From Verrucomicrobiota bacterium (lineage in GTDB: Bacteria > Verrucomicrobiota > Kiritimatiellia > Kiritimatiellales > Tichowtungiaceae), in assembly GCA_016342445.1 (NCBI GenBank), contig JAEIOF010000004.1, forward strand, positions 1-45,019: a DNA stretch of 45,019 nucleotides, read 5' to 3'. The position numbers and the translations under genes were made by a program. Below, in pieces: positions 1,032 to 40,877 of the stretch. Position 1 is the stretch's first letter. Each line of letters opens with the position of its first letter. Below the pieces are notes generated by a model that made no database searches, was not told where the DNA came from, and saw nothing but the letters and a program-made list of their open reading frames with translations.

Positions 1032-1579
1032 ATGCCCTACTCAAAAACCTAATCGAACAATACACAAGACTCGAACTTGATGTGCAGGAGCTCGTCAACG
1101 CACAGTGCAACGAATTATGCGTACAATGTGGCATCTGCTGTTGTACCGCGATCATCTGCGAAGAAGCGATCGAAAGCCCCTTTCTCAAGCTCGTCCATCA
1201 GCAATCGAACCTTTTTAACGACCGCTACGGGTTTTTAACCGAAAAAGGCTGCCTGCTTGATGCGGGCCGCCCGCCGGTCTGCTATGAATTTTTCTGCGCC
1301 GATCAACTCTTCCACCAGCCCGACGAACTTCACGGCAAGCTCCTCCGGATCTTGGGTGCCCTGCCGAATCATGCTGGAAAACAAGCCTTGGGCGATATTC
1401 ACCTTGTTGATATCCGCAACGAAAATGATTTCGAACGGCTTAATTTCCAAGGATTGGAAAAACAGCTTCAAGAAAGTTTCCAATGCTTGGAAATTCTACG
1501 CGGCTTCTTTAACGAAAAAACCCTGCCGGAGGATGCCGGCAGGGTTTTCGATCGAATCTCCGTTTCAACAGACGATTAA
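1028..1579 (+). CDS. YkgJ-like Cys-rich (putative metal-cluster) protein
   Basis: A 183-residue protein translationally coupled to mfd by an ATGA overlap. Residues 27-39 carry a dense cysteine cluster (CNELCVQCGICCC), and two more cysteines lie in PPVCYEFFC near residue 90. This resembles the YkgJ/UPF0153 family of presumed Zn or Fe-S binding proteins; the function is unknown. Two TTCCAA-N3-TTGGAA palindromes lie in frame and encode FQGLE (residues 140-144) and FQCLE (151-155). The last 60 bases contain a terminator hairpin that belongs to the convergent dapL gene, and the two stop regions overlap by 4 bp. The family assignment rests on the cysteine pattern alone. Confidence 0.65.
   Translation: MNALLKNLIEQYTRLELDVQELVNAQCNELCVQCGICCCTAIICEEAIESPFLKLVHQQSNLFNDRYGFLTEKGCLLDAGRPPVCYEFFCADQLFHQPDELHGKLLRILGALPNHAGKQALGDIHLVDIRNENDFERLNFQGLEKQLQESFQCLEILRGFFNEKTLPEDAGRVFDRISVSTDD
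1445..1492. repeat. Two TTCCAA-N3-TTGGAA palindromes inside the YkgJ-like gene
   Basis: Exact copies at 1445-1459 (centre GGA) and 1478-1492 (centre TGC), 33 bp apart start to start. Both are translated in the same frame as FQxLE. They belong to the dispersed palindrome family described in the findings. Confidence 0.9.
1517..1548 (-). terminator. Intrinsic terminator of dapL, bidirectional in form
   Basis: A 9-bp GC-rich stem (CCCTGCCGG / CCGGCAGGG) with a 6-nt loop, flanked by A-runs on the left and T-runs on the right. Read on the minus strand it ends in six T residues 28 bp after the dapL stop, so it fits dapL best. Read on the plus strand it ends in four Ts, but it lies inside the last codons of the YkgJ-like gene. 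Confidence 0.85.
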
Positions 1580-6406: not shown

Positions 6407-6606
6407 TTCCAAATATTGGACCCAACTCATCCGTGTTAAAGGTTGCCGCGTAAAAACCTCAGTTTCTTTACAGGAGGATCCAAAGTCGGGAACTGTTTTT
6501 TCCAATGCTTGGAAAAATGAGGAGCAAGCATTCCAAGGGCTGGAAAAAAACCGCTGAGTTTTCCAATGTTTGGAAAAATTCCGGCAAAAAGATCCAAGGG
6601 CTGGAA
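6407..6606 (+). repeat. Cluster of five TTCCAA/TTGGAA palindromes downstream of map
   Basis: Copies start at 6407 (last base changed), 6500 (exact), 6531 (one change), 6561 (exact) and 6592 (two changes). Start-to-start distances are 93, 31, 30 and 31 bp. The spacer after 6531 carries CCGCTGAG and the one before 6592 ends in AAAAAG, matching spacers of the other clusters and giving this copy a plus orientation. It begins directly after the map stop codon, at the end of the ribosomal superoperon. Confidence 0.9.
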
Positions 6607-13399: not shown

Positions 13400-13423
13400 T
13401 CGATCGCTCTCATCTAAAAATCA

Positions 13424-13837: not shown

Positions 13838-13854
13838 GATTCAAATACTCCTGC

Positions 13855-14490
13855 TTAAGCTTGCGCCTTTTGGTCCTTCTTGCAAATCCAGACCTTGATT
13901 CCGATTGCACCAGCAATCGTGCGGGCTGTCGCCACGCCATAATCAATGTCGGCACGCAGTGTGTGCAACGGGATCTTGCCTTCCTTATAGCTTTCCGAGC
14001 GGGAAAGCTCGGCACCGCCAAGACGACCACTTGCCAACACCTTGATTCCATCGGCACCCGTATCCATCGCCATCTGAATGGCGCGTTTCATGGCCCGGCG
14101 GAAAGAAACTCGGCGCTCCAGCTGGAGGGCGATACTCTCGGCCACCAGTGTTGCATCGAGGTCAGGACTTTTGACTTCATCAATTTCGATATATACTTCT
14201 TTTTTTGTCTTCGCGCTCAGCTGCTCGCGCAGCTTTTCGATGTCCTCGCCCTTGCGGCCGATCACCAAGCCCGGACGGGCTGTACGAATCGTCACACGAA
14301 CACGGTTTGCATAGCGCTCAATAAAAACGCTTGAAATTGCAGCATCTTTCAGACGCGCCTTAACGGCTTCGCGGATACGGATATCCTCTTGAAGCAGATC
14401 AGCAAACTCCTTTTTGCCGGCATACCAGCGTGAGCGCCAATTTTTATTGACCGCAATTCGAAGTCCTATTGGATTTACTTTCTGTCCCAA
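13855..14490 (-). CDS. rpsC: 30S ribosomal protein S3
   Basis: 211 residues. The N-terminus [20 protein letters not shown] and the KH domain with [19 protein letters not shown] are clear, followed by the C-terminal domain ([39 protein letters not shown]). S3 lines the mRNA entry channel. The length is near the usual minimum, without the long C-terminal tail of some phyla. Confidence 0.97.
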
Positions 14491-14507
14491 AACAATTCCC
14501 TTTCTAC

Positions 14508-14843
14508 TTACTTACGATCGGTCAAAACGACTGTTACATGTGTGGTACGCTTGCGGATTGCACTAGCCGATCCACGGGCGCGGGGACGAAACCGTTTCAA
14601 GGTCGGTCCACCATCCACATGCGCATCTTTCACAAAAAGCTTATCTGCGGAAACCCCTTCGTTGTTCTCGGCATTTGCAATGGCCGACTTCAAGGTTTTC
14701 CCAATCTGCAGAGCAGACTTTTTGGCGTTAAATTCAGTGATACGAAGGGCCTCCGCAACGGAAAGTCCACAGATCTCAGAGGCGACCCCGCGGGCTTTCA
14801 ACGGAGACATTCTCACATATTTTGTTGTTGCTGAAACTTCCAT
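14508..14843 (-). CDS. rplV: 50S ribosomal protein L22
   Basis: 111 residues, starting [20 protein letters not shown] and ending with the tunnel-lining hairpin region [21 protein letters not shown]22 contacts all domains of 23S rRNA, and its loop forms part of the exit-tunnel constriction. An unusually long 97-bp gap with a hairpin separates it from rpsS. Confidence 0.97.
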
Positions 14844-14940
14844 GTCTTTACCTTCTACAGTTTAGCTGCCGCTTTTCGGGCGCAAAGGCGGCAACTATAC
14901 GTCATTCCTTTTTCAAATCCAGAACTTCTATCAAAAATGT
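14844..14940 (-). promoter_or_regulatory. rpsS-rplV spacer with a hairpin and a possible internal promoter
   Basis: Elsewhere in this operon gaps are 2-37 bp; this one is 97 bp. It holds an imperfect hairpin (TGCCGC at 14867-14872 pairs with GCGGCA at 14888-14893) and, on the minus strand, a TATAGT -10-like hexamer (14894-14899) with a weak -35 (CTGGAT at 17 bp). It could be an internal promoter or an RNA control element for rplV and downstream genes. No run of Us follows the hairpin. Confidence 0.4.
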
Positions 14941-15219
14941 TTAGCGAATTGTTTTATCTGTCGCGATTCCGTGCGTTTTAAAGCCGCGGGTCGGAGAGAA
15001 CTCTCCCAAACGGTGCCCCACCATGTTTTCCGAAACAAAGACGGAAACAAACAATTTCCCGTTATGCACCATGAAGGTGTGGCCGACAAATTCCGGCGCG
15101 ATCATACAAGCTCGCGACCAGGTTTTGATCGGTTTTTTTCTGCCAGACACTTCCATCTGCTCAACCTTTTTGAGCAGTTTTGCGTCGATGTAGGGACCTT
15201 TTTTAAGTGAACGTGCCAT
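14941..15219 (-). CDS. rpsS: 30S ribosomal protein S19
   Basis: 92 residues, starting [20 protein letters not shown] with [20 protein letters not shown] and the signature [20 protein letters not shown]19 sits in the 30S head and pairs with S13. It starts 3 bp after the rplB stop. Confidence 0.97.
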
Positions 15220-15222
15220 AAC

Positions 15223-16050
15223 TTACTTCTTTCTCCGTTCGACAATATACTGGCTGGAAGCCTTTTTCTTTTTCCGAGTGCGCTTGCCTTTGGCCAGCGT
15301 TCCCCACGGCGAGATCGGATGTCCACCACCGGACGTACGACCTTCTCCACCACCCATCGGATGATCCACAGGGTTCATCGCCACACCGCGAACGGTCGGA
15401 CGAATTCCGAGCCAGCGTTTACGGCCGGCCTTACCACTCACGATATTTTCATGATCCACATTTCCAACCCGACCGATTGTCGCATAGCACGCTGTGCGGA
15501 TGCGTCGGATTTCTCCGGACGGCATTTTCAGGTTGGCAAAATCTCCCTCGCGGCTCATCAGCTGAGCGCTGGTTCCAGCAGAGCGAGCAATCTGCCCCCC
15601 GCAACCGGCCTGCAACTCAATGTTATGAACTGCGGTTCCCAACGGAATGTTTGCCAGCGGCAATGCATTTCCGATATCGGGCTCCACGTTCGACCCGGAC
15701 AGAAGCGTCGCGCCAACTTCCAGACCCACAGGGGCGATGATATAGCGTTTTTCGCCGTCCGCATAATTCAGCAAAGCGATTCGCGACGAACGGTTCGGAT
15801 CGTACTCAATGCTCGCCACGGTTGCGGGGATGTTGAGTTTATTGCGCTTAAAGTCAATCACACGGTAGCGACGCTTGTGGCCTCCCCCCTTATGGCGGGT
15901 TGTGATCCGGCCTGCGCTGTTGCGTCCGCCCGTGCTCTTCTTCGGACGAAGCAATGAACGCTCCGGGGTCGACTTCGTGATTTCTTCAAACGCGGAAGTC
16001 ACCATATGGCGACGACTCGGCGTGGTCGGTTTATATGTTTTCAAAGCCAT
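15223..16050 (-). CDS. rplB: 50S ribosomal protein L2
   Basis: 275 residues, normal length. It has [20 protein letters not shown] near the N-terminus, [20 protein letters not shown] centrally, and the highly conserved [20 protein letters not shown] near the C-terminus, with the histidine (MNPVDHP) implicated in peptidyltransferase-centre function. It is essential for subunit association. It lies between rplW and rpsS as in the S10 operon. Confidence 0.98.
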
Positions 16051-16061
16051 GATTATTCTCC

Positions 16062-16346
16062 CTAAACAAAGTCGATCTTGCTGTCTTCAGCAAGCGTCAC
16101 GACGGCGCGCTTCCAAGCGGCGGTGCGTCCGGCGCTGGCCGTGCGTTCACGTTTCTTTTTTCCCTGACGATTCATGGTATTAACGGCAACCACTTTCACC
16201 TTGAAAAACTTCTCAACAGCCTGCTTGATCTCCGCTTTATTAGCCTTCGGATTGACGCTGAAGATGTACTTGTTCTCTTCCTCGGAAAGGCGAGTGCCCT
16301 TCTCTGTCAACAGAACCTTATTAATTATCTGATAAATATCTTTCAT
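16062..16346 (-). CDS. rplW: 50S ribosomal protein L23
   Basis: 94 residues with [40 protein letters not shown] and [11 protein letters not shown], matching L23. It forms the exit-tunnel docking site for trigger factor and SRP. It lies between rplD and rplB. Confidence 0.97.
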
Positions 16347-16358
16347 TGAAATTCCCCT

Positions 16359-16988
16359 CTACGCCATCCGCTCTTCGAGCTTTTCCATTCCCGCTTTGGT
16401 GATCAAGATCTGCGGATAGCGAACAATATGATAGGTGCTCACAAGATCAGCACTCACCACTTCCACATCCGGCAGATTGCGCGCCGCGAGGCTAACATTC
16501 TGATTGATCTCGCCAAGAATCAGCAAGGCCTTGCCGCTGACTCCCAACGTTTTGAAAACAGAGACAAACTCCTTCGTGCGAGGCGACTCCAGCTTAATAT
16601 CATCCAGAACCGTAATCGCAGCTTCAGCAGCCCGTGTGCCGAAGGCACGAGCGAAGGCCAGACGAGCCACCTTTTTAGGCAACTGCTTGCGGACTTTATG
16701 AGGATGCGGACCCCACGCAACGGCACCGCCGCGCCATACGGGCGACTGCTTATAACCGGCACGGGCGCGGCCCGTCCCTTTCTGTTTCCAGGGTTTAGCT
16801 CCGCTTCCGTTCACGGCACCCTTGCCCTGCGTATTAGCAGACCCTTGATGCTGATGAGCCTGATAGGTGGTCACCGTTTGGAAGAGCGCCTGTGCACCCT
16901 TATCGGTCACATCAAACTTTTCACTGAGGCTCACTTCGCCCAGCGCCGTTCCCTTACAATCTTTAAGTGGCATTGTGTTCATGTTCAT
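16359..16988 (-). CDS. rplD: 50S ribosomal protein L4
   Basis: 209 residues at most. The tunnel loop (GAKPWKQKGTGRARAG, then SPVWRGGAVAWGPHPHKVRK) is typical. GAGAGG abuts the first ATG but is 6 nt before the second ATG (at 16982), which is therefore the likelier start, giving 207 residues. In E. coli L4 represses the S10 operon by binding its leader; no such leader is obvious here because rpsJ follows fusA without a gap. Confidence 0.96.
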   Translation of the reverse strand: MNMNTMPLKDCKGTALGEVSLSEKFDVTDKGAQALFQTVTTYQAHQHQGSANTQGKGAVNGSGAKPWKQKGTGRARAGYKQSPVWRGGAVAWGPHPHKVRKQLPKKVARLAFARAFGTRAAEAAITVLDDIKLESPRTKEFVSVFKTLGVSGKALLILGEINQNVSLAARNLPDVEVVSADLVSTYHIVRYPQILITKAGMEKLEERMA

Positions 16989-16997
16989 CCTCTCAAA

Positions 16998-17627
16998 TTA
17001 TTTCCGTTTGAGTGCTTCGCGAAGCACTAGCGTACTGCCGTTTGCACCAGGCACCGCACCCTTAAGAAGGATTAGGTTTTCTTCTGGACGAACCTGAACC
17101 ACTTTCAGACTCTGAACGGTGATTTTTGTTGATCCCATCTGACCCGGCATTTTCTTCGATTTGAAAACGCGGCCCGGATGTTCACACATCCCGATGGAAC
17201 CGGGTCTGCGATGAAAATGCGAACCGTGGGTCGCGGGACCGCCGCCGAAACCGTACCGTTTCATAACCCCTTGGAAGCCCTTCCCTTTGGTCACACCCAG
17301 AACATCCACAAACTTGATGTCTTCGAAGATCGCGGCGGTGAGCGTGTCGCCCGCTTTGGTTTCGTCGTCGGCGCTCACACGCACTTCACGCAGTTCGTGC
17401 ATCGTGCCCACACCGGCTTTTTTGTAGTGGCCAACCAGCGGCTTCGAAACACGTTGTTCCTTTTGCGCGCCGAAACCGATCTGAATCGCTTCGTAGCCAT
17501 CCGTCTTCGTTGTCTTGCGCTGAAGCACACTACACGGACCTGCCTCGATCACAGTGACCGGAATGCAACGTCCTTCGTCGTCGAAGATCTGCGTCATTCC
17601 CAATTTTTTTCCAATTAAACTTTTCAT
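16998..17627 (-). CDS. rplC: 50S ribosomal protein L3
   Basis: 209 residues, starting [20 protein letters not shown] and containing the central [25 protein letters not shown] loop that reaches the peptidyltransferase centre. L3 is an early 50S assembly protein. It lies between rpsJ and rplD. Confidence 0.97.
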
Positions 17628-17635
17628 GATATCGC

Positions 17636-17944
17636 TCAGATTTTAATGGTGATGTCCACGCCCGCCGGCAGATTCAGCTTTTTGAGCTCATCTACGGTTT
17701 TAATGGTCGGGTCGATGATGTCCAGCAAGCGTTTGTGCGTGCGGATCTCAAACTGCTCCATCGATTTTTTGTTCACAAACGGACTGCGGTTGACGGTATA
17801 CCGCTCGATGCGGGTCGGCATCGGAATGGGTCCGGCCACACGAGCGCCCGTGCGCTTAGCGGCTTCAACAATTTCTTTCGACGAGGTGTCGAGCACCCGA
17901 TGGTCGAAAGATTTTAAACGTATGCGTATGCGTTGATTATTCAT
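17636..17944 (-). CDS. rpsJ: 30S ribosomal protein S10 (NusE)
   Basis: 102 residues: [40 protein letters not shown] and a hydrophobic C-terminal strand. Besides its ribosomal role it acts as NusE in antitermination with NusB and links to NusG. It begins 9 bp after the fusA stop, so the str and S10 operons are fused here. Confidence 0.97.
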
Positions 17945-17953
17945 AACTTTTCT

Positions 17954-20092
<2,139 letters not shown>

Positions 20093-20128
20093 TTCAATTC
20101 TCAAAGAACAAGGGTCTGGAACCAGTCA

Positions 20129-20602
20129 TTACCACTTATAATGAGCAAAGGCTTTGTTCGCCTGAGCCATTTTGTGGGTGTCATCGCGCTTCTTAATCGC
20201 CGCACCCTGATTGGAGTAGGCATCCATCAATTCATTCGCCAGCGCACGGCGCATCGGCATCCCTTTACGGGTTTTGGAGTACTGGATCAACCAACGGCAA
20301 GCCAGTGCGGTTTGACGCTTGGCACCCACTTCGAGCGGGACCTGATAGGTAGCTCCACCGACACGTTTGGATTTTACTTCCAACTTCGGCTTAATATTCT
20401 CAACTGCACGAGAGAAGACCATCAACGGATCTTCATCAGGCATCTTAGTCTGAACATCTTCAAGTGCTCCGTAAACGATGGCTGCGGCGGTTGCCTTTTT
20501 GCCACGACCCATGATGCTGTTGACCATGTAGGCCACCAACTCGCTGTTAAAGCGGGGATCCGGAATAACTTCACGTTTTACTGCTGCGCGTCTTCTTGCC
20601 AT
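20129..20602 (-). CDS. rpsG: 30S ribosomal protein S7
   Basis: 157 residues, starting MARRRAAVKREVIPDPRFNS, with VNSIMGRGKKATAAAIVYGA, YQVPLEVGAKRQTALACRWL and MPMRRALANELMDA. S7 is a primary binder of the 16S 3' domain at the E site. It lies between rpsL and fusA. Confidence 0.97.
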   Translation of the reverse strand: MARRRAAVKREVIPDPRFNSELVAYMVNSIMGRGKKATAAAIVYGALEDVQTKMPDEDPLMVFSRAVENIKPKLEVKSKRVGGATYQVPLEVGAKRQTALACRWLIQYSKTRKGMPMRRALANELMDAYSNQGAAIKKRDDTHKMAQANKAFAHYKW

Positions 20603-20617
20603 GATTAAAAACCTTCT

Positions 20618-20992
20618 TTAAGCCTTCGGTCTCTTAGCGCCGTATTTTGAGCGCCCTTGTTTGCGTCCGTTCACACCGAGACAGTCCAGTGCACCGCGAA
20701 CGATGTGGTAACGAACACCCGGCAAGTCCTTCACACGACCGCCGCGAACCAGCACCATGCTGTGTTCCTGAAGATTGTGACCTTCGCCCGGAATGTAGGC
20801 ATTAATTTCGCGACCATTGGTCAAACGGACACGCGCCACTTTCCGCAACGCGGAGTTCGGCTTTTTCGGAGTCTGTGTCTTCACCAAAAGACAGACACCA
20901 CGACGCTGCGGACACGCGGTCAATGCAGGGCATTTCTTCTTCTTTTTCAGCGGAACACGCGGTTTTCTAACGAGTTGATTAATTGTCGGCAT
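20618..20992 (-). CDS. rpsL: 30S ribosomal protein S12
   Basis: 124 residues from the ATG at 20992, chosen because GGAAGGA lies 7 nt upstream and [12 protein letters not shown] is the standard S12 start; the frame itself opens six codons earlier. It contains [20 protein letters not shown] (streptomycin-site lysine PKKPNS) and [17 protein letters not shown], the decoding-centre loops. No resistance-type change is evident at these lysines. It is the first gene of the superoperon. Confidence 0.97.
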
Positions 20993-21024
20993 AAATATTC
21001 CTTCCCTCAAAAATCGAGCGGCAG

Positions 21025-21053
21025 ATAGTATGTTCCTGCCGCCCGCCCCGCAA
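21025..21053 (-). promoter_or_regulatory. Promoter of the str-S10-spc superoperon
   Basis: On the minus strand TTGCGG (21048-21053) and TACTAT (21025-21030) are separated by 17 bp, upstream of the rpsL Shine-Dalgarno. The inferred start lies near 21018, giving a leader of about 25 nt. Confidence 0.6.
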
Positions 21054-21300
21054 GCATTACATTAATTTTTTTTGCAGTTTTTTCTCAGCACCGGAATCCA
21101 CTGCAAAAAATGCGGCGCAAGCGGGCTATACAACCAAAAAACCAAAGAATAGCAAGGCTCTCCTGCAACTTCTTTTCACAATCCACTCCGCACCGAACCC
21201 TACGCCCCTGCCCTGTCGCCGGATAAAATGTTCCAATGATTGGAAACCGGCCCAAAGATTGTAACTTTGCTCCCGACGCCCTTGTGCCGCGACCCCGTCC
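21054..21300. other. recA-rpsL intergenic region with one palindrome
   Basis: Non-coding. It contains an inverted repeat of TTTTTTGCAG (about 21067-21076) with CTGCAAAAAA (21101-21110), which is A/T-rich with a long loop, and one exact palindrome at 21231-21245. No clear recA terminator is visible. Confidence 0.4.
21231..21245. repeat. TTCCAA-N3-TTGGAA palindrome downstream of recA
   Basis: Exact copy with centre TGA, about 56 bp past the recA stop. It is a single copy. Confidence 0.85.
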
Positions 21301-23903: not shown

Positions 23904-25661
23904 TCAGCCGTGCGAGTCGAGTTCGGCCCAGCGGTTGAAGGCGGTTTCAAGCTCGTGCGGAACGGCTTCGGCTCGCGCGGTGACGGTTTTAATCTCGACC
24001 GGATCACGACGGTAGAAATCAGGATCGTTGAGGGTCGTGTTCAACTTTTCAAGCTCCGCTTCGAGCGTCTCAATGAGCCGGGGCAGTTCCTTCAGCTCCT
24101 CCCGCTCCTTATTGGTCAGCTTGCGCGTCCGCTCCTTCAACGACTCATCAACTTTTCGAGTCTGAACCGTAGCCTTCTGCTGCCGAGCGGATTGCTCAAG
24201 CCAGTCGTCGTAACCGCCGGCGTATTCGCCGATGCTCCCGCTCTCGAAAACAAGCGTTGAAGTTACGACGTTGTTGAGAAAAGCGCGGTCGTGACTGACA
24301 AGCAGAACGGTTCCCTGATACTCGGCCAGCAGCTCCTCGAGCAGGTCGAGCGTTTCCACATCCAGATCATTGGTCGGCTCGTCGAGCACCAGCAGGTTAG
24401 AGGACTGAGCAAAGAGCTTGGCGAGCATCAGGCGATTGCGTTCGCCGCCGGAGAGCGACCCGACCGGTTGCTCGGCATCCGCCGGAGAAAAGAGAAAATT
24501 ATTCAAATAGCCAATCACATGCTGACTTCCGCTATTGGTCTGAACGTACTCATTGTCGCCGCACAAATTCCACTTCACGCTCTTGGTTTCGTCGAGCTGG
24601 ATCCGATGCTGATCGAAATAAGCGATTTCGAGGCGTGTGCCATGACGCACCTCGCCCCTCGTCGGTTCGAGTTGCCCGAGCAGCGCATTGATCAGCGTCG
24701 ATTTCCCGCATCCATTAGGGCCGATGATACCGATACGATCGCCGCGCAAAATCTCGGTCGAAAAACCACTAACGATCACTTTGCCGTCATAGCCGCAGGA
24801 AATATTATCGGCAGTGATCACCTTGCGGCCCGAGGCGCCCGCTTCGTGCAGCTGCATCTTGACGGTCCCGGAGCGCTCGCGGCGCTGCGAACGGTCGCTA
24901 CGCATCTTTTCGAGCTCGCGCACACGGCCCTCATTACGCGTTCGCCGCGCCTTGATCCCCTTACGAATCCAAACCTCCTCCTGCGCCAGCTTTCGGTCGA
25001 ACTGAGCCCGCTGCCCCTCTTCCGCATCCAGCAGATCCTGCCTGCGCTTGAGATAGGTCGAATAATCGCACTCCCAGCTGGTCAGATTCCCACGATCAAG
25101 TTCGACGATACGGGTGGCCAACTTCTGCAAAAACACGCGGTCATGCGTCACAAATAAAACAGTACCGCGCCAACGGAGCAAAAAGTTTTCCAACCATTGG
25201 ATGGATTCAATATCGAGGTGATTGGTCGGCTCGTCGAGAATCAGCACATCGGGTTCGTTCACCAGCGTTTTGGCCAGCAGCGCGCGGCGGCGCATCCCGC
25301 CGGACAGTGCCGAAAACTCCTGCTCGCCATCGAGATTCATCAACGAAATCACCTTTTCCACCGGATGATCCAGCGCGTGCTCGTGGTTCCAATCCTTGGA
25401 AATAATATCGAACACCGTACCCTGAAGGTCTTGCGGAACCTTTTGGGTCAGGCGGGCGACCGTCACGCCGCCCTGACGAAGAACCGCCCCGCCGTCCGGC
25501 TCCAGATCGCCGCTGAGGATTTTGAGAAGGGTCGACTTGCCCTCCCCGTTGCGCCCGAGCAGACAGATCCGCTCTCCCGGTTCAATCTGAAGAGTCGCCC
25601 CGTCGAGCAGCTTGGGGCCGCCGAAAGCAATTTGAATGTTTTGTAAGCTAAGTAGTGCCAT
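23904..25661 (-). CDS. uup: ABC-F family ATPase, Uup type
   Basis: 585 residues from MALLSLQNIQIAFGG. The frame stays open 87 codons further, but that part is only translated palindrome repeats. Two ABC modules: Walker A GRNGEGKST (36-44) and GPNGCGKST (314-322), signatures LSGGMRRRALLAK and LSGGERNRLMLAK, Walker B ILDEPTNHLD and VLDEPTNDLD. The inter-domain linker with EEVWIRKGIKARRTRNEGRV and the C-terminal coiled coil (about 500-585) mark the Uup subgroup, which acts on ribosomes and branched DNA. It has no membrane domain. No Shine-Dalgarno is present; TACATT lies 10 nt before the ATG. Palindromes at 25188 and 25387 lie in frame. Confidence 0.88.
   Translation of the reverse strand: MALLSLQNIQIAFGGPKLLDGATLQIEPGERICLLGRNGEGKSTLLKILSGDLEPDGGAVLRQGGVTVARLTQKVPQDLQGTVFDIISKDWNHEHALDHPVEKVISLMNLDGEQEFSALSGGMRRRALLAKTLVNEPDVLILDEPTNHLDIESIQWLENFLLRWRGTVLFVTHDRVFLQKLATRIVELDRGNLTSWECDYSTYLKRRQDLLDAEEGQRAQFDRKLAQEEVWIRKGIKARRTRNEGRVRELEKMRSDRSQRRERSGTVKMQLHEAGASGRKVITADNISCGYDGKVIVSGFSTEILRGDRIGIIGPNGCGKSTLINALLGQLEPTRGEVRHGTRLEIAYFDQHRIQLDETKSVKWNLCGDNEYVQTNSGSQHVIGYLNNFLFSPADAEQPVGSLSGGERNRLMLAKLFAQSSNLLVLDEPTNDLDVETLDLLEELLAEYQGTVLLVSHDRAFLNNVVTSTLVFESGSIGEYAGGYDDWLEQSARQQKATVQTRKVDESLKERTRKLTNKEREELKELPRLIETLEAELEKLNTTLNDPDFYRRDPVEIKTVTARAEAVPHELETAFNRWAELDSHG
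25188..25202. repeat. TTCCAA/TTGGAT palindrome in uup
   Basis: One change from the consensus. It is translated as IQWLEN just after the first Walker B/D-loop, at a position where ABC-F proteins naturally have a WLE-type sequence. Confidence 0.6.
25387..25401. repeat. TTCCAA-N3-TTGGAA palindrome in uup
   Basis: Exact copy with centre TCC, translated on the minus strand as ISKDWNHE in the first ABC module. Confidence 0.8.
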
Positions 25662-25671
25662 AAGGCGTGGA

Positions 25672-25699
25672 AATGTAACGGTTCGCCTCTGAGAAACAA
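25672..25699 (-). promoter_or_regulatory. Possible uup promoter, very short leader
   Basis: On the minus strand TTGTTT (25694-25699), a 16-bp spacer and TACATT (25672-25677), which ends 10 nt before the ATG at 25661. Confidence 0.4.
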
Positions 25700-25737
25700 G
25701 CCGGAAGGCATTCGGAATTGAAAACAGACAGACCGTT

Positions 25738-25898
25738 TTCCAAGCAGTGGAAGCGGGCTGAGCCGGGAATCCTTCTGTTTTCCAAGCATTGAAAAAAAAC
25801 CGATGTGATTTTTCCAACCATTGGAACCCGCTGAGCCGGGGGCTTTCTGTTTTTCCAAACATTGGAAAAACAGAGACGAAAAGTTCCAATGGGTGGAA
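25738..25898 (+). repeat. Cluster of five palindromes, composite element, upstream of uup
   Basis: Copies start at 25738 (one change), 25780 (one change), 25812 (exact), 25853 (exact) and 25884 (one change). Distances are 42, 32, 41 and 31 bp, alternating long and short spacers. The two long spacers share GCTGAGCCGGG and end in CTTTCTGTTT or CTTCTGTT. The last short spacer ends GACGAAAAG. It reads through as an open frame on both strands, which produces misleading N-terminal extensions of uup. Confidence 0.92.
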
Positions 25899-25920
25899 AC
25901 CATCCCGGCGGCGGGCGGGC

Positions 25921-25957
25921 ATATATCGTAATACGATATATCACATAGTGATATATC
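25921..25957. promoter_or_regulatory. Two overlapping perfect palindromes (operator-like)
   Basis: ATATATCGTA-A-TACGATATAT (25921-25941) and GATATATCAC-ATA-GTGATATATC (25935-25957) are both perfect with 10-base arms and share GATATAT. They lie between the palindrome cluster and the rpoC terminator, far AT-richer than their surroundings. They could be an operator for an unidentified regulator or alternative RNA hairpins. Confidence 0.55.
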
Positions 25958-25980
25958 TAGCAGGGTGCGACGCAGGGACA

Positions 25981-26013
25981 AAAAAAGCGCCCCGGAATTC
26001 GGGGCGCTTTTTC
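25981..26013 (-). terminator. Intrinsic terminator of the tuf-rpoBC superoperon
   Basis: An 11-bp stem (AAAGCGCCCCG / CGGGGCGCTTT) with a 5-nt loop and a T-run on the minus strand, about 20-50 bp beyond the rpoC stop. The A-run on one side and T-run on the other make it potentially bidirectional. Confidence 0.92.
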
Positions 26014-26031
26014 GGAACTCTTTTGGAGTTC

Positions 26032-30222
<4,191 letters not shown>

Positions 30223-30250
30223 GATTCTCCTGTCAAAGATTAAAGATGCC

Positions 30251-34030
<3,780 letters not shown>

Positions 34031-34068
34031 TAAATTACCTTCAGGCTCATATTAGACGCTTAAACCCC

Positions 34069-34148
34069 CCGCTTCAAATGAAGCGGCAGGCTCACGAAAT
34101 TCAACCACACCACTTGACGCACAGAAGCACCGGCGGGGAAACCGCCGG
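34069..34148 (-). promoter_or_regulatory. rplL-rpoB intergenic hairpins
   Basis: Two stems lie in the gap: CCGCTTC-AAAT-GAAGCGG (34069-34086) and CCGGCGG-GGAAA-CCGCCGG (34130-34148). Neither is followed by a U-run on the minus strand. The position equals that of the E. coli rplL-rpoB attenuator and RNase III site, so attenuation or processing is a reasonable inference. Confidence 0.55.
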
Positions 34149-34171
34149 GCTACGACTGCGCATCGCTTTTG

Positions 34172-34603
34172 TTACTTGATTTCGACGGTCGCGCCAACGC
34201 CTTCGAGCGTTGCCTTGATCGAATCGGCTTCTTCCTGAGAGACGCCTTCTTTAACCGCTTTTGGTGCGCTGTCGACCAGGTCTTTAGATTCTTTCAGTCC
34301 CAGGCCGGTAATTGCGCGCAACTCTTTAATGACCTGAATCTTCTGCGAACCAGGAACCGTCAGTACAACCGTAAATTCGGTCTGAGCTTCTGCGGCAGCT
34401 TCGCCACCAGCTGCGGCACCGCCAGCTGCGGCAACCGCAACGGGGGCTGCTGCGGAAACGCCCAAACGGACTTCCAGAGCTTTCACCAGGTTGGAAAGTT
34501 CCAACACCGAAATACCTTCGATCCAGTCAACAAACTCAGCCATTTTGCCTTCGAGTTTGACTTCTACTTTTGCTTCTTCAGCATCTTTTACTTCTTCAGC
34601 CAT
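34172..34603 (-). CDS. rplL: 50S ribosomal protein L7/L12 with N-terminal extension
   Basis: 143 residues, about 20 longer than usual. A perfect AGGAGG lies 6 nt before the first ATG, so the acidic/basic extension [20 protein letters not shown] is genuinely translated; the familiar start would be near [20 protein letters not shown]. An Ala/Gly hinge ([17 protein letters not shown]) joins the dimerisation domain to the factor-binding domain ([20 protein letters not shown]). The stalk recruits EF-Tu and EF-G. Confidence 0.95.
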
Positions 34604-34654
34604 TTTTATTCCTCCTACAGATATATGAATCCCAACAATTAAATGAAAACGTTT

Positions 34655-35179
34655 TTACGCTGCCTGTTCTTTTTTTTCTACGACGGCATTGAGCACGTAT
34701 AGCAAACTGCAAACCTTCTGGTTCATCACGCCGACCACCTGAGTCATCGGGGCGGCCAGTGTGCCAACAAGCATTGCCTGAAGCTCTTTTTTGCCCGGCA
34801 GATCTGCCAATGCCACAACGTCATTCGACGAAAGAACGGAGCCTTCGAGTACGCCACCCTTAATGACCGGCTTTTTCGTTGCCGCAGAAAACTTCTTCAG
34901 AATCTTCGCCACTTCGACCACATCGCCAGCACCGCTGATCATCGCGGTCGGCCCAGTCAGCGTGTTCAGATTGCCATAGATGCGGTTGAGGGTGGTGTTT
35001 TTGACCACTTTCAGTTTCGCATCAGCACCCTTAAGCTGTTTTTTAAAATCCAGCGTTTCAAGCACGGTCATGCCGGTACAATCGGTTAGCAACATGTAAA
35101 GCGCACCGGAGACACTCTCCTGCACCTCGTTAAACATCGCCTGTTTTTCAAGTCTCAAATTTGTATTTTCTGTGCTCAT
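34655..35179 (-). CDS. rplJ: 50S ribosomal protein L10
   Basis: 174 residues. LYMLLTDCTGMTVLETLDFK, KQLKGADAKLKVVKNTTLNR and GPTAMISGAGDVVEVAKILK fit L10, the base of the L7/L12 stalk, with an Ala-rich C-terminal helix for L12 dimers. It lies between rplA and rplL, 18 bp after rplA. Confidence 0.96.
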   Translation of the reverse strand: MSTENTNLRLEKQAMFNEVQESVSGALYMLLTDCTGMTVLETLDFKKQLKGADAKLKVVKNTTLNRIYGNLNTLTGPTAMISGAGDVVEVAKILKKFSAATKKPVIKGGVLEGSVLSSNDVVALADLPGKKELQAMLVGTLAAPMTQVVGVMNQKVCSLLYVLNAVVEKKEQAA

Positions 35180-35197
35180 GACTCGTATGTCCTCAGG

Positions 35198-35893
35198 TTA
35201 AGCCGCAGCTGTTTCTTTTACATCGACATGTAGACCCGGCCCCATGGTGGTCGCGATCGTGCAGCGTTTGATATAAACTCCTTTAGCGGAGTCCGGTTTG
35301 GCAGCGAGAATCGCACCGTAAACGGAACGGAAATTTTCAGCCAGTGCTTCTGTCGTGAAAGAGCGTTTCCCGAACGGAACCATAATGTTGCCATTGCGAT
35401 CCATACGGAACTCAACCCGCCCAGCCTTCAACTGCTTTACAGCCGTCGCGGTGTCATCGGTAACCGTTCCTGTTTTCGGATTCGGCATCAGGCCGCGCGG
35501 TCCGAGAATTCGGGCCGCTTTACGGACTTCCTTCATGGCTTCTGTTGTGGCAACCACCACATCAAAATCCATCCAGCCGCCCATCACTTTAGCCAACAGA
35601 TCTTCGAAGCCGACTTCAGTAGCGCCTGCGCCTTTAGCGGCCTCAGCCGCTGCGCCAGTGGCAAACACGATCACGCGGACGTCTTTACCGGTTCCGTGAG
35701 GAAGCGCCACAGTCGAGCGGACCGCCTGATCCGACTTCGTCGGATCCAGACCCATCTTCAGAGCGATTTCAAATGTTTCATCAAAATTCGCGGTGGGGTT
35801 TTCTTTCAAAAACTCGATGGCCGTCTCAACGGCATAACGGTTCTCTTTCGAAACCTTTTCCTTAACAGCTCTATATTTTTTTCCGTGTATCAT
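35198..35893 (-). CDS. rplA: 50S ribosomal protein L1
   Basis: 231 residues, normal length. TANFDETFEIALKMGLDPTK, TVALPHGTGKDVRVIVFATG, LGPRGLMPNPKTGTVTDD and VEFRMDRNGNIMVPFGKRSF match L1, the mobile stalk protein at the E site and a translational repressor of rplKA in E. coli. It starts 2 bp before the rplK stop region. Confidence 0.97.
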   Translation of the reverse strand: MIHGKKYRAVKEKVSKENRYAVETAIEFLKENPTANFDETFEIALKMGLDPTKSDQAVRSTVALPHGTGKDVRVIVFATGAAAEAAKGAGATEVGFEDLLAKVMGGWMDFDVVVATTEAMKEVRKAARILGPRGLMPNPKTGTVTDDTATAVKQLKAGRVEFRMDRNGNIMVPFGKRSFTTEALAENFRSVYGAILAAKPDSAKGVYIKRCTIATTMGPGLHVDVKETAAA

Positions 35894-35895
35894 GG

Positions 35896-36318
35896 CTATT
35901 CAACCTCAATTCCCATGCTGCGGGCGGTGCCTTCAATGATACGGCAGGCCGCATCCAAGCTGTTACCCGTCAAATCTGCTTCTTTAATTTTAACAATTTC
36001 TTCAATTTGTGCGCGGGTCACTTTACCGACCTTGTCGCGGTTCGGAACCCCCGAGCCCTTAGCAATAGACGCCGCTTTTTTAAGCAGCGCGGACGCCGGC
36101 GGGCTTTTAGTTACGTAGCTGAAGGAACGGTCCTGATAGACCGTGATCACCACCGGAATGATCATCCCGGCGTCATTCTGCGTAGCGGCATTAAATGCCT
36201 TGCAGAACTCCATAATATTTACGCCTTTTTGACCCAGCGCCGGACCGACCGGCGGAGCCGGAGTTGCCTTCCCTGCCGGAATCTGCAATTTGATCTTTGC
36301 CATTTCTTTTTTTGCCAT
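35896..36318 (-). CDS. rplK: 50S ribosomal protein L11
   Basis: 140 residues: [37 protein letters not shown], the proline-rich hinge typical of L11, and [20 protein letters not shown] near the C-terminus. L11 binds the GTPase-associated centre. A second ATG (MAKIKLQIP, five codons on) is the more usual L11 start. Confidence 0.97.
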
Positions 36319-36335
36319 AAAAAACTCCGCTCAGG

Positions 36336-36887
36336 TTACGACGCTTTGTCCGCCTGCCAATATTCCAATTCCACAGGAGCAGTCCGCCCGAAGATCGAAA
36401 CTGAAACTTTCAGTTTTCCACGACTCGGATCCACTTCCTCAATCACTCCGCTAAAGTTCATGAACGGCCCGTCGGTGATTTTCACCGTTTCACCCGGTTC
36501 AAACTGAATCTTCGGCGTGACCTTTTCCTTCTTCTCTTCGACCTGATTCAAAATGCTATTCACTTCATCCTCACGCAATGGAACCGGGGCTACGCCTCCG
36601 ACAAATCCAATCACACTCGGTGTTTCCTGAATAAACGACCAGGTCTTCGCTATTAAATTTTTCTGCCCATCATACAAAGCCACATTGGCCAGTACATAAC
36701 CGGGGAAAAACTTGCGAGCCCGCGTTGTTTTCTTCCCATTCTTCACTTCCGAAATATTTTCGGTCGGAATCAGGATCTCCCCAACGTACTCCTCAAACTC
36801 TTCCTGCTTCACCCGGCTAGCAATATTATTCTGAACCTTCTGCTCATGCCCGGAGAGCGTATGTAAAACGAACCACTGCTTTTCCAT
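36336..36887 (-). CDS. nusG: Transcription elongation/antitermination factor NusG
   Basis: 183 residues from MEKQWFVLHTLSGHEQKVQN. The frame opens 63 codons earlier but that part overlaps secE and is not NusG. The NGN domain includes NISEVKNGKKTTRARKFFPG and VIGFVGGVAPVPLREDEV; the KOW domain has FEPGETVKITDGPFMNFSG. NusG binds the RNA polymerase clamp and links it to Rho or S10. It follows secE as in most bacteria. Confidence 0.96.
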   Translation of the reverse strand: MEKQWFVLHTLSGHEQKVQNNIASRVKQEEFEEYVGEILIPTENISEVKNGKKTTRARKFFPGYVLANVALYDGQKNLIAKTWSFIQETPSVIGFVGGVAPVPLREDEVNSILNQVEEKKEKVTPKIQFEPGETVKITDGPFMNFSGVIEEVDPSRGKLKVSVSIFGRTAPVELEYWQADKAS

Positions 36888-36904
36888 TATTCGTCTTTCT
36901 CCGC

Positions 36905-37108
36905 TTAGCGCAGAACCGCTCTTAACAAACCCATCAGTGTCGTGTCGCTCAATCCAACGAACACACCCAGAATCAACACCGAGACAACAACAACCATCGT
37001 TGAACCCAGCAACTCCCGGCGGGTCGGCCAGGTGCATTTCTTCAGCTCGGTTTTCACCTCGCCGAGAAACGTCCACAGCGCATTAATTAATTCAACAATT
37101 TTTTTCAT
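36905..37108 (-). CDS. secE: Preprotein translocase subunit SecE
   Basis: 67 residues, the single-membrane-segment form. An amphipathic helix with EVKTELKKCTWPTRRELLGS (TWPTR is the SecE signature) is followed by the hydrophobic segment TMVVVVSVLILGVFVGL. It clamps SecY. It lies between tRNA-Trp and nusG. Confidence 0.95.
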   Translation of the reverse strand: MKKIVELINALWTFLGEVKTELKKCTWPTRRELLGSTMVVVVSVLILGVFVGLSDTTLMGLLRAVLR

Positions 37109-37127
37109 CTCTTAACCCCGAAGAAAC

Positions 37128-37203
37128 TGGCAGGCCAGAAGGGAGTCGAACCCCTAACCCCCGGTTTTGGAGACCGGTGCTCTGCCAATTGAGCTACTGG
37201 CCT
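37128..37203 (-). tRNA. trpT: tRNA-Trp (CCA anticodon)
   Basis: A full cloverleaf on the minus strand: acceptor AGGCCAG, D arm AGCTCAATTGGCAGAGC, anticodon loop CTCCAAA (anticodon CCA), T arm GGGGTTCGACTCCC. The 3' CCA is encoded. It lies between rpmG and secE and is cotranscribed. Confidence 0.97.
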
Positions 37204-37221
37204 ACACCAAATCTTCAAAAT

Positions 37222-37374
37222 CTATTTTGTTTCTCTGTGCAGTGTGTGTTTCCGATCACTCGGACAGAATTTCTTGCGTTCGAGACGACCTGTCGAAAGC
37301 TTCTTGTTCTTCGTCGTCGAATAATTGCGACGCTTACATTCTGTGCAAGCCAGGGTAATAATATCTCTCGGCAT
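37222..37374 (-). CDS. rpmG: 50S ribosomal protein L33
   Basis: 50 residues, too short for a simple ORF screen. [20 protein letters not shown] then [31 protein letters not shown] fits L33. The first zinc pair is CTEC, but the second is CPSD, so the fourth ligand is aspartate rather than cysteine. GGAG/GAGG lies just upstream of the ATG. It sits between tuf and tRNA-Trp, as in many bacteria. Confidence 0.93.
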
Positions 37375-37410
37375 GATCTCCGCCCTCTTTTTCTATCGTT
37401 GGTGAGAATA

Positions 37411-37440
37411 GTGATGCACCCGCATGGGCGAATGCATCAC
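37411..37440 (-). other. tuf-rpmG intergenic hairpin
   Basis: A perfect 8-bp stem, GTGATGCA (37411-37418) with TGCATCAC (37433-37440), encloses a smaller CCC/GGG stem. No T-run follows on the minus strand. It may be an RNA processing or stability element that separates tuf from the lower-demand genes. Confidence 0.5.
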
Positions 37441-37465
37441 CGGCTCAACATTTCGTTGCGTCCGC

Positions 37466-38668
37466 TTACTTGACAATCTCGGTCACGCGACCCGCGCCAA
37501 CGGTGCGTCCACCTTCACGAATCGCGAAGCGCATGTGCTGCTCCATTGCGATCGGAACGATCAGCTCGACGTTCATGCTGACATTATCGCCAGGCATAAC
37601 CATCTCAACACCTTCCGGAAGGGTGATGTCACCCGTCACGTCGGTTGTGCGGAAATAAAACTGCGGACGGTATCCTTTAAAGAACGGAGTGTGGCGTCCA
37701 CCTTCGTCTTTGTTCAGGATGTACACTTCGGAAGTGAAGGTCGTGTGCGGGTTGATGGAACCGGGCTTAGCCAGAACCTGGCCGCGCTCCACGTCTTCCT
37801 TCTTGGTGCCGCGAAGCAGACAGCCGACATTATCGCCAGCCTGACCTTCGTCGAGGATTTTGCGGAACATTTCAACACCCGTACAGGTGGTTTTGACCGT
37901 GTCTTTCAGACCGATAATCGCAACTTCGTCACCGGTGTGAACCATGCCGCGTTCGATACGACCTGTTACCACGGTACCGCGACCTTCAATCGAGAACACG
38001 TCTTCGATCGGAAGCAGGAAGGCCTGGTCGGTAATACGCTCCGGCTCCGGAACATAGCTGTCGAGGGCTTCCATCAGCTCCTGAATACAAGCAGCTTCCG
38101 GTCCGCTCGGGTTCAGAATCGCCGGCAGAGCCGCACCACGGATAACCGGAACGTCATCGCCCGGGAATTCGTACTTGGAAAGCAGTTCGCGAATTTCAAG
38201 CTCCACGAGGTCGAGAAGTTCTTCGTCGTCCACGAGGTCACACTTGTTCATGAAAACAACGATGCACGGCACACCAACCTGACGAGCGAGCAGGATGTGC
38301 TCACGAGTCTGGGGCATCGGTCCGTCAGAAGCGGAAACGCAAAGAATCGCGCCGTCCATCTGAGCCGCACCGGTGATCATGTTTTTGACATAGTCGGCAT
38401 GTCCCGGGCAGTCAACGTGAGCGTAATGACGTTTGTCAGACTCGTACTCAACGTGCGAAGTCGCAATGGTCATGATTTTGGATGCATCACGACGGCCCTG
38501 GGATTCAGAAGCCTTCGCTACTTCATCGTAAGCAATATATTTGGACAGGCCCTTAGAGCCCTGCACACAAGTGATCGCTGCGGTCAGCGTAGTTTTACCA
38601 TGGTCAACGTGACCGATGGTCCCGACGTTAACGTGCGGTTTTGTCCGTTCGAATTTATCTTTAGCCAT
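37466..38668 (-). CDS. tuf: Elongation factor Tu with divergent switch I
   Basis: 400 residues. It delivers aminoacyl-tRNA to the ribosome. G1 GHVDHGKT (19-26), G3 [21 protein letters not shown]4 NKCD and domains II/III ([31 protein letters not shown]) are normal. Switch I is not: residues 48-71 read [25 protein letters not shown], where most EF-Tu proteins have an E-E-K-A-R-G-I-T-I-N segment. There are five extra residues, and RGITI is replaced by KIMTI, although the magnesium-contacting Thr (T67) and SHVEYE are kept. AGGAGG lies upstream of the ATG. It is the only tuf in the window. Confidence 0.96.
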
Positions 38669-38716
38669 GACTATTCCTCCTGATCCTTATTCTTATCTAA
38701 TTCACAAATCTTCAAC

Positions 38717-38792
<76 letters not shown>

Positions 38793-38962
38793 GGTAAACT
38801 CCTCGTGCTCGCGCTATTCGCCATTTAAACGCAAAAAAAAGCGTAAAAAAAACCGATCCTGTTTTGCGCTCCAACAAAAATCAGATTTTTATACCCTAAC
38901 TTCATTTAAATCACCCTGCGCAAACACCAAAGCACTTCTGGTTCATCACACAAAGGGGAGCG

Positions 38963-38990
38963 ACTTTAGCCAAAAACCGTTTCCTGTCAA
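38963..38990 (-). promoter_or_regulatory. Main promoter of the tRNA-Thr-tuf-rpoC superoperon
   Basis: On the minus strand a consensus TTGACA (38985-38990) and TAAAGT (38963-38968) are separated by 16 bp. The inferred start is near 38956, about 165 bp before tRNA-Thr. A second -10-like TATAAA lies nearer the tRNA (about 38890) with a poor -35. Confidence 0.65.
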
Positions 38991-39070
38991 CTTTTTTGGC
39001 GTAAATATTTACAACCATTTATCTCACCCTGCCCGCACCCCCCTGCATTCCAAAAAATTTCAAAAAACGG

Positions 39071-39098
39071 TTGCCAACACCGTTGCAATCCCTATCAT
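39071..39098 (+). promoter_or_regulatory. Promoter of the peroxiredoxin gene
   Basis: TTGCCA (39071-39076), a 16-bp spacer and TATCAT (39093-39098). AAGGAG (39129-39134) lies 7 nt before the ATG at 39142. Confidence 0.55.
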
Positions 39099-39141
39099 AA
39101 TTGTCACATTTAAAAACAGGCATTTAACAAGGAGAAACATC

Positions 39142-39705
39142 ATGCTGAAAATCGGGCAACAAGTCGACGACTTCGAAATGGACGTATTCCACAACGAAGA
39201 GATCAAAAAAATCAAACTCTCAGACTATAAGGGAAAATGGGTCGTTCTGATCTTCTATCCGGCCGACTTCACCTTCGTCTGTCCCACCGAGCTCAAAGAA
39301 GCCGCCCTGCTCTACGACAAATTCCAGGCCGCCGGCGCGGAAATCATTTCCATCAGCACCGACACCGCCTTTGTCCACAAAGCATGGCACGACGAATCCG
39401 AAGCCATCAAAATCGTCAACTACCCCATGGGCGCCGACCCGACCGGCAACATCAGCCGCGCCTTCGGAACCTACATTGATGCAGAAGGCCTCGCGCTTCG
39501 CGGAACCTTCATCATCGATCCCGACGGCGTCCTCAAAACCATGGAAATGCACGATCTCGGCATCGGCCGCAGCGCCGTCGAAGCCCTGCGCAAACTCGAA
39601 GCCGCCAAATTCGTCCGCCAATATGGCGACCAGGTCTGCCCCGCAGGCTGGCAGCCCGGCGATGCAACTCTCACGCCCGGCCTCGACCTCGTCGGAAAAA
39701 TCTAA
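39142..39705 (+). CDS. Typical 2-Cys peroxiredoxin (AhpC/Prx1 class)
   Basis: 187 residues. It reduces hydrogen and organic peroxides in the cytoplasm. Peroxidatic C47 is in DFTFVCPTE and resolving C166 in GDQVCPAGW. The length is AhpC-like. The partner reductase (AhpF or thioredoxin) is not in the window. A good Shine-Dalgarno and a terminator frame a single-gene unit. Confidence 0.95.
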   Translation: MLKIGQQVDDFEMDVFHNEEIKKIKLSDYKGKWVVLIFYPADFTFVCPTELKEAALLYDKFQAAGAEIISISTDTAFVHKAWHDESEAIKIVNYPMGADPTGNISRAFGTYIDAEGLALRGTFIIDPDGVLKTMEMHDLGIGRSAVEALRKLEAAKFVRQYGDQVCPAGWQPGDATLTPGLDLVGKI

Positions 39706-39730
39706 TCCTCCAGAGGGATTAAAAAAACCC

Positions 39731-39767
39731 AACCCGTCCGCTCGCAAGAGCGGCCGGGTTTTTCTTT
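39731..39767 (+). terminator. Intrinsic terminator of the peroxiredoxin gene
   Basis: AACCC..CCGCTC, loop GCAA, GAGCGG..GGGTT with a 2-nt internal mismatch, then TTTCTTT. It starts about 25 bp after the stop codon. The upstream A-run makes it bidirectional in form. Confidence 0.9.
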
Positions 39768-39798
39768 CCTGCCCGCCATAGCCTTTAGCGACGGCGGT

Positions 39799-39844
39799 TT
39801 CCAATGTTTGGAACTTTTCCGTCCCGTTCTTCCAAGCATTGGAA
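39799..39844 (-). repeat. Two palindromes between the peroxiredoxin and DUF4870 genes
   Basis: Exact copies at 39799-39813 (centre TGT) and 39830-39844 (centre GCA), 31 bp apart. Read on the minus strand, a CCGG-rich stretch ending CTGTT precedes the first copy and GACGGAAAAG precedes the second. These match the long and short spacers of the 25.8-kb cluster, so this is a partial composite element in minus orientation. Confidence 0.9.
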
Positions 39845-39871: not shown

Positions 39872-40237
39872 CTATTTGATGAAGCGGATGCAGAGCGGGT
39901 AGCGATAGTCATCGCCTTCATTCGCCCTCACAGAGGCAATAAGGATAAAGATGACATTCGCAATCCACACCAGCGGCATCAGCGCGATTCCGATCACCAC
40001 CACGGAAAGCATTCCGCAGATGATAACATAGAGCAGAATGCTGAGCTGAAAGTTCAGCGCCTCTTTTCCCTGCTTCTCAACATACGGATTTCCCTCGCGT
40101 TTGATCAGCCACAAAATCAGCGGCCCGACAAACCCCGTCATCAGCGCGATCAGATGGCAGCCCATCGCCCACGATTTCTCATCGGTAGACGGCGAACTCA
40201 TTTGCTCCTCACTCCGTTCCTGAGTTTCGTTTTCCAT
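39872..40237 (-). CDS. DUF4870 (Tic20-like) small membrane protein
   Basis: 121 residues from the ATG at 40237, chosen because AAGGAG lies 6 nt upstream; an in-frame ATG five codons earlier lacks such a site. A polar N-terminus is followed by three hydrophobic segments: MGCHLIALMTGFVGPLILWL, NFQLSILLYVIICGMLSVVV and MPLVWIANVIFILIASV. The intervening KREGNPYVEKQGKEALNFQL is the DUF4870 hallmark. The molecular function is unknown. It overlaps the end of the AMMECR1 gene by 29 bp, so it is probably cotranscribed. Confidence 0.8.
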   Translation of the reverse strand: MENETQERSEEQMSSPSTDEKSWAMGCHLIALMTGFVGPLILWLIKREGNPYVEKQGKEALNFQLSILLYVIICGMLSVVVIGIALMPLVWIANVIFILIASVRANEGDDYRYPLCIRFIK

Positions 40238-40877
40238 CTTCATCTCCTTCATCTTGTTGAATATACTCCGTGGTGTAGCGAAAGACGCGAAGGGTTTCCG
40301 ACCAGTATCCGGCGGGCAGTCCCGCCTTCAACTTAAGATGTTCGAAAAACATTTCCTTTTCGGGAAGCTCTTCCCAAACGCTCGGCAAAAAGGTTCCTCG
40401 CCGAACCCCCTCCTGCAAAATCAATCCGTCGACCCCGGGGCGAACCTGGCTTAGCAAATCAGCTTCCGATGAAAAGGACATTTCCCCCGGCGGGGAAAGA
40501 ACCGAAATACTGATTTGGAGATCGTCGAACTCATCACGCGAGAGCGGCGGGAAGCGCGGATCGTGAAAAGCAGCTGCCACGGCGTTTTCGGCAACATCCT
40601 CCGCCAACGGACGGCACGCTTCGAGCATCCCGATGCACCCGCGCAGATTGCCGTCGCTCGTCAGCGTCACAAACGTCGCACGCTGTTCCATCAGCTCGGC
40701 GGGAAGTTCGCCGGGTGCGCTCACCTGGCCTGCGGGTTTTCCAACCTCTGGAACTTTTTTATTATTTTTTTCCAACCCTTGGAAAACAGAAGACCTCCCG
40801 GCGCTGCCGAGTTCCAATGTTTGGAAAATCGCGTCGCGCGCAATCGCAAGTAACAGCTGCTGATGCTCCCGTTTCAT
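40209..40877 (-). CDS. amrA: AMMECR1-domain protein (AmmeMemoRadiSam component A)
   Basis: 222 residues. The AMMECR1 core is clear: RATFVTLTSDGNLRGCIGML (68-86 region), FHDPRFPPLSRDEFDDLQIS and LKAGLPAGYW. Between the N-terminal helix (HQQLLLAIARDAI) and the core lies a segment of about 40 residues that contains three translated palindromes: FQTLE (18-22), FQGLE (32-36) and VPEVG (42-46). The other two components of the system are encoded at 42386-43174 and 43226-44101. The biochemical role is not established; a radical SAM modification pathway is inferred. Confidence 0.9.
   Translation of the reverse strand: MKREHQQLLLAIARDAIFQTLELGSAGRSSVFQGLEKNNKKVPEVGKPAGQVSAPGELPAELMEQRATFVTLTSDGNLRGCIGMLEACRPLAEDVAENAVAAAFHDPRFPPLSRDEFDDLQISISVLSPPGEMSFSSEADLLSQVRPGVDGLILQEGVRRGTFLPSVWEELPEKEMFFEHLKLKAGLPAGYWSETLRVFRYTTEYIQQDEGDEDGKRNSGTE
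40739..40826 (-). repeat. Three palindromes inside the AMMECR1 gene
   Basis: Copies start at 40739 (one change), 40770 (exact) and 40812 (exact); distances are 31 and 42 bp. On the minus strand the long spacer has GCGCCGGG and ends CTTCTGTT, like the cluster at 25.8 kb, and the short one ends AAAAAG. The unit is translated in frame. Confidence 0.92.

Follow-up and report, generated by a model that had tools for sequence, protein, structure and literature searches.

Helically phased palindromic sites in Kiritimatiellae genomes and an in-frame array in an AMMECR1 gene

The palindromic segment of the AMMECR1 gene is, in our assessment, probably one array within a genome-wide mosaic of cooperative sites for a putative dimeric DNA-binding protein. 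The larger finding, beyond the in-frame insertion, is a network of sites that is phased on the DNA helix and selected at the DNA level. The unit of this network is a 15-bp palindrome with the consensus form TTCCAA-NNN-TTGGAA, three copies of which lie in the AMMECR1 reading frame. In the window, that is, the whole analysed stretch of 45,019 nucleotides, there are 27 matches with at most two mismatches against 2.95 expected, and none of 100 shuffles reaches 27. The complete own genome (2.09 Mb) holds 793 exact copies, compared to 2 for a reversed-pattern control. The motif was not found in literature searches. The features of the AMMECR1 locus are as follows.

40209..40877, minus strand: AMMECR1-family gene, 222 aa (open frame and Pfam PF01871, E 2.6e-47)
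40812..40826, unstranded: palindrome 1, TTCCAATGTTTGGAA, exact; residues 18-22, FQTLE
40797..40811, unstranded: 6-3-6 inverted repeat CCCGGC-GCT-GCCGAG, abutting palindrome 1; one of the dispersed hairpins whose arms covary
40740..40811, minus strand: in-frame insertion of 72 bp, residues 23-46, LGSAGRSSVFQGLEKNNKKVPEVG, absent from nine aligned relatives
40770..40784, unstranded: palindrome 2, TTCCAACCCTTGGAA, exact; FQGLE; 42 bp from palindrome 1
40739..40753, unstranded: palindrome 3, TTCCAACCTCTGGAA, one mismatch; VPEVG; 31 bp from palindrome 2

The three in-frame palindromes encoding FQTLE, FQGLE and VPEVG, as described in the initial annotation, are confirmed at 40812-40826, 40770-40784 and 40739-40753, respectively. 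The same annotation took them for an extra segment over most of residues 17-50, which holds for residues 23-46 (72 bp) but not for FQTLE: palindrome 1 is not inserted but overlies native residues of the first helix. The start of the gene is conserved among the relatives, and an exact palindrome stands at the same coding offset (+51) in G013, G004 and G002, with versions carrying one or two mismatches in G009, G042, G006 and G012; other relatives have the native EHGL or SKGL at this place. In the AlphaFold2 model, FQTLE falls within helix 3-23.

The insert consists of the hairpin, 12 nt, palindrome 2, 16 nt and palindrome 3, the hairpin (40797-40811) being an addition to the initial annotation, which omitted it. 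Residues 23-46 are missing from nine aligned relatives, including an outgroup at 54% identity, and both sides of the gap align; G013 has none of the 24 residues. A partial insert of 14 of these residues is present in G010, where a palindrome again stands at offset +93. The claim of an in-frame insertion, bearing palindromes, between the first helix and the core is borne out by these nine relatives and by G013. The two checks proposed with that claim, an orthologue alignment and a structure model, both agree with it: the alignment gives nine relatives without the insert and a partial one in G010, and the segment is modelled as a low-confidence loop. No relative among those aligned lacks the palindromes while having the same residues. 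In the model, residues 33-51 have a pLDDT below 50 and most of the stretch 23-46 is predicted to form a disordered loop; the family core is unaffected. Because the insert lies directly against palindrome 1 and has palindrome 3 at its other end, its boundaries are ambiguous by the terminal-repeat and target-site-duplication criterion used for MITEs, and its placement would fit either recombination at palindromes or insertion beside one. Comparable in-frame insertions occur in other genes.

Among the 388 genomes of the phylum surveyed, the motif is restricted to the class Kiritimatiellae (counts of 0-5 outside the class are background) and is patchily distributed inside it, from 0 to 1339 sites per genome, the richest genome being G048. 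Among the congeners, G000-G004, G010 and G013 count as site-rich and G006-G009, G011 and G012 as site-poor. With genes called by a home-made procedure, 52% of the sites fall in predicted coding sequence, compared to 85% for random positions. Tandem, convergent and divergent gaps are all enriched alike, about 3-4-fold, and therefore no promoter preference is apparent. The sites are spread along the entire chromosome of G010, a single 3.9-Mb contig, and 40 samples of this complete chromosome give no origin or terminus trend; on this ground, a role in marking the origin or terminus was rejected. The window contains further arrays.

25738..25898, unstranded: five-site array at the 5' end of an ABC-F-type gene (23904-25922, minus strand); spacings 42, 32, 41, 31
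39799..39844, unstranded: two-site array with spacing 31, in the convergent gap after a peroxiredoxin gene; related to the AMMECR1 array
6407..6606, unstranded: five-site array (at most two mismatches); spacings 93, 31, 30, 31
1445..1492, unstranded: two-site array with spacing 33

The longest and second-longest stretches without sites in the 924 kb sampled also lie in the window. One of these (6804-21230, 14.4 kb) presumably consists of ribosomal-protein operons, and the other (25885-39798, 13.9 kb) spans two very long genes that we take to be rpoB and rpoC, plus an EF-Tu gene. The most constrained genes seem to keep the palindromes out. Separately, contigs from the IMG/VR viral collection carry the same phased pairs (L198 3429-3505, L199 650-767, L200 7669-7715 and L201 10589-10634); these contigs may be true Kiritimatiellae viruses or host DNA.

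The spacing of the sites follows the DNA helix. Across 924 kb of the own genome, with 569 sites of at most one mismatch, the centre-to-centre distances are 22, 30-32, 41-43, 52-53, 61-64, 72-75, 82-85, 91-96 and 105 bp and so on, with almost nothing between, that is, almost only multiples of 10.4-10.5 bp. This ladder recurs in three further species: the best period is 10.4 bp in G010 and G013, as in the own genome, and 10.6 bp in G008, the latter from five pairs only. On the assumption that pairs are independent, Rayleigh tests on nearest neighbours give p of about 1e-60 for distances under 60 bp, about 3e-11 for 60-110 bp and about 4e-3 for 210-300 bp; beyond 500 bp, the phase is lost. Degraded partners (at most three mismatches) of isolated sites obey the same rule, with 32 in phase versus 3 out of phase (P about 1e-10).

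Within genes, the palindromes are conserved as DNA. When the 12 core positions were compared with their flanks in genes aligned without gaps, core identity exceeded flank identity in the site-rich relatives G013 (0.875 vs 0.773) and G010 (0.788 vs 0.704), and the same applies to the fraction of identical synonymous third positions (0.86 vs 0.58 and 0.80 vs 0.50, respectively). In the site-poor G008, which served as the composition control, cores equal flanks (0.718 vs 0.719); the synonymous controls were codon-matched in the G008 comparison only. In this species, 79% of the aligned positions are within four mismatches of the palindrome, compared to 0.3% for the control, and this level of decayed palindromes is the one expected from general DNA conservation alone. 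Raw retention in orthologues (40% vs 0.8%) was rejected as a measure of selection, being overstated when general DNA conservation is uncontrolled. The comparison of cores with flanks suggests that palindromes inside genes are kept by selection on the DNA itself. The notion of a generally inserted element does not survive the comparison of 124 site/orthologue pairs in coding sequence, 86% of which are ungapped and only 5% fully gapped; most sites therefore stand on homologous residues. The centre base is C or G in 98% of the palindromes. The half-sites vary almost independently, with 15 of 144 dyad-symmetric and 9.3 expected, so that compensatory change across the dyad is weak at most.

The arrays are mosaics in which 15-bp units follow one another at helical spacing, separated by spacers that vary. 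Spacers recur between loci: over 92 bp, the AMMECR1 array matches the array of the ABC-F-type gene (25810-25899) with 77% identity (E 3e-11). Among the 42-bp spacers, 14 of 38 contain a palindrome-adjoining 6-3-6 inverted repeat (at least five pairs), compared to 0.6 in shuffles, and the hairpin arms differ yet pair (GCAGGC-TGA-GCCTGC, GGAAGC-TGA-GCTTCC, GCCGGA-TGA-TCCGGC, GTCGGC-AGC-GCCGAC). In several genes, the hairpin module falls in an alignment gap and has therefore been gained or lost in frame; some relatives keep a matching or decayed copy. The recurrence of spacers and the covariation of hairpin arms suggest that modules also spread as repeats, in which case some of the phasing could reflect geometry inherited with the module. 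In the 52-bp spacer class (L089 17459 and 17661, L095 2734), there is sequence of the type CCGCGAA..CACGAATGAACGCGAA, apparently an independent dispersed repeat caught between palindromes. Separately, L100 4522-4606 carries tandem translated modules (FQALENKMGEGSAFFQTLENKMAGSSASFQGLEK) in a 996-aa predicted protein.

The repeat-like behaviour of the modules is the basis for an alternative in which the palindrome is a selfish element, similar to the Rickettsia palindromic elements (RPE) or to MITEs, that spreads by insertion without a host function, with the phasing produced by module lengths. The clean 72-bp insertion in AMMECR1, the hairpin modules in alignment gaps of several genes, the spacers common to different loci and the patchy distribution (0-1339) are all compatible with such an element. 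We nevertheless regard this possibility as rather unlikely: the great majority of coding sites (86%) are ungapped relative to orthologues, cores are conserved above flanks in site-rich relatives, at synonymous positions too, and the phase persists past any module length.

The geometry of the sites is also that of the Lrp family, whose 13-15-bp palindromes form clusters with spacings of two or three turns of the helix, all on the same face of the DNA (PMC2995911). The palindromes might then be operators of the conserved Lrp/AsnC-family protein (G000:C17:16894-17370), of which the own genome has exactly one orthologue and whose family matches in palindrome size and helical spacing. This identification is improbable, given that site-poor congeners have the orthologue just as well and with similar sequence (86% identity in G008, which has 71 sites, against 85% in G010, which has 567) and that the palindrome centre is C/G rather than AT-rich. 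As an explanation of site number, it is rejected because the orthologue does not track the sites. The regulator is found in nearly all genomes, site-poor ones included; of the genomes that lack it, six fairly complete ones have 0-1 sites and five less complete ones 4-88. As for the protein itself, the sole Lrp/AsnC representative of the genome (L077 16894-17370) has no arginines in its recognition-helix region (PAAEVTACIADYEKSG), residues that are described as important for major-groove contacts (PMC2995911), and it may bind DNA unusually.

Mobilisation as REP/BIME elements by a RAYT (IS200-like) transposase would account for the palindrome-spacer mosaic, the covarying hairpin arms and the high copy number, but is very improbable. 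The Y1 transposases are absent from some site-bearing genomes (G086, with 183 sites, and G057, with 111), on which grounds RAYT mobilisation is rejected, and the richest genome, with its 1339 sites, has two weak Y1 matches; furthermore, by inspection, the listed hairpins lack a GTAG or CGTC tag, being mostly preceded by GGGT, GCCC and similar sequences, and half of the sites are in genes. Finally, a transcribed RNA hairpin (a terminator, attenuator or processing signal) is almost certainly not the explanation: the palindrome and the abutting hairpin could, by their sequence, fold in RNA, but the phasing is at the DNA helical period, convergent gaps are not strongly preferred over divergent ones, and an RNA stem-loop is rejected by the absence of a coding-strand wobble bias and of any Rfam match. 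Because the half-sites are nearly independent and there is no mRNA-strand bias (45 wobble-keeping vs 40 wobble-breaking changes), a protein operator is indicated rather than an RNA stem.

A dimeric protein on one face of the helix is the best explanation for the phasing, symmetry and conservation combined. Under this scenario, a dimeric DNA-binding protein would use the 15-bp palindrome as its operator and would assemble, presumably cooperatively, on several operators along one helix face; this putative binder would act as a nucleoid-associated or global regulatory factor. The arrays would disperse and grow by the copying of modules, either a palindrome plus a 16-nt spacer or a hairpin plus 12 nt plus a palindrome, and those in genes would persist only when they keep the reading frame and are tolerated. 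In AMMECR1, the 72-bp module, which encodes a surface loop, would have been added to an ancestral site in helix 1. More tentatively, and with somewhat less conviction than even chances would warrant, we propose that Kiritimatiellae have a sequence-specific nucleoid protein that bridges or coats DNA via more than 1000 phased operators, which selection would maintain even in coding sequence, and that protein loops are thereby dictated by the architecture of the chromosome. Lineages that lost the system, G008 for example, would have left their operators to decay. If this is right, the case would be an unusually explicit one of a DNA-level signal under selection strong enough to fix synonymous positions and to give proteins extra residues. 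The helical ladder is a sign of a phased nucleoprotein structure, defined by sequence, in a whole bacterial class; closely related site-rich and site-poor species offer natural gain/loss experiments, and the way palindromic repeats enter genes in frame becomes a testable question.

Several known systems share some of these properties. Upstream of rRNA promoters, the nucleoid protein Fis has 15-bp sites at distances of about three and four turns of the helix; these resemble the present palindromes in size and helical-turn spacing but differ in that the Fis motif is AT-rich and degenerate and is found at a few promoters only. The operators of Lrp/AsnC proteins share the 13-15-bp palindrome size, the spacing of two or three turns and the single helix face; unlike them, the sites described here number more than 1000 copies per genome, have a C/G centre and are not tracked by the orthologue. 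REP/BIME are high-copy palindromes that are joined by recurrent spacers into mosaics and bind proteins (PMC2817692). The likeness lies in this mosaic of palindromic units and recurrent spacers; BIMEs, however, are predominantly extragenic, whereas 52% of the present sites are in coding sequence (85% expected by chance), with strict helical phasing, no RAYT requirement and no GTAG/CGTC tag seen. The Rickettsia palindromic elements are dispersed palindromic DNA found in frame in unrelated genes and translated (PMC10969869). The resemblance to RPE noted in the initial annotation concerns the outcome, a translated in-frame insertion in coding sequence that gives AMMECR1 24 residues which nine relatives lack, and does not extend to the unit: an RPE is one fixed element of about 150 bp with a conserved peptide, whereas the arrays described here are mosaics of 15-bp units with helical spacing and variable spacers, and, unlike RPE, their sites stand mostly on homologous residues and appear to be under constraint at the DNA level.
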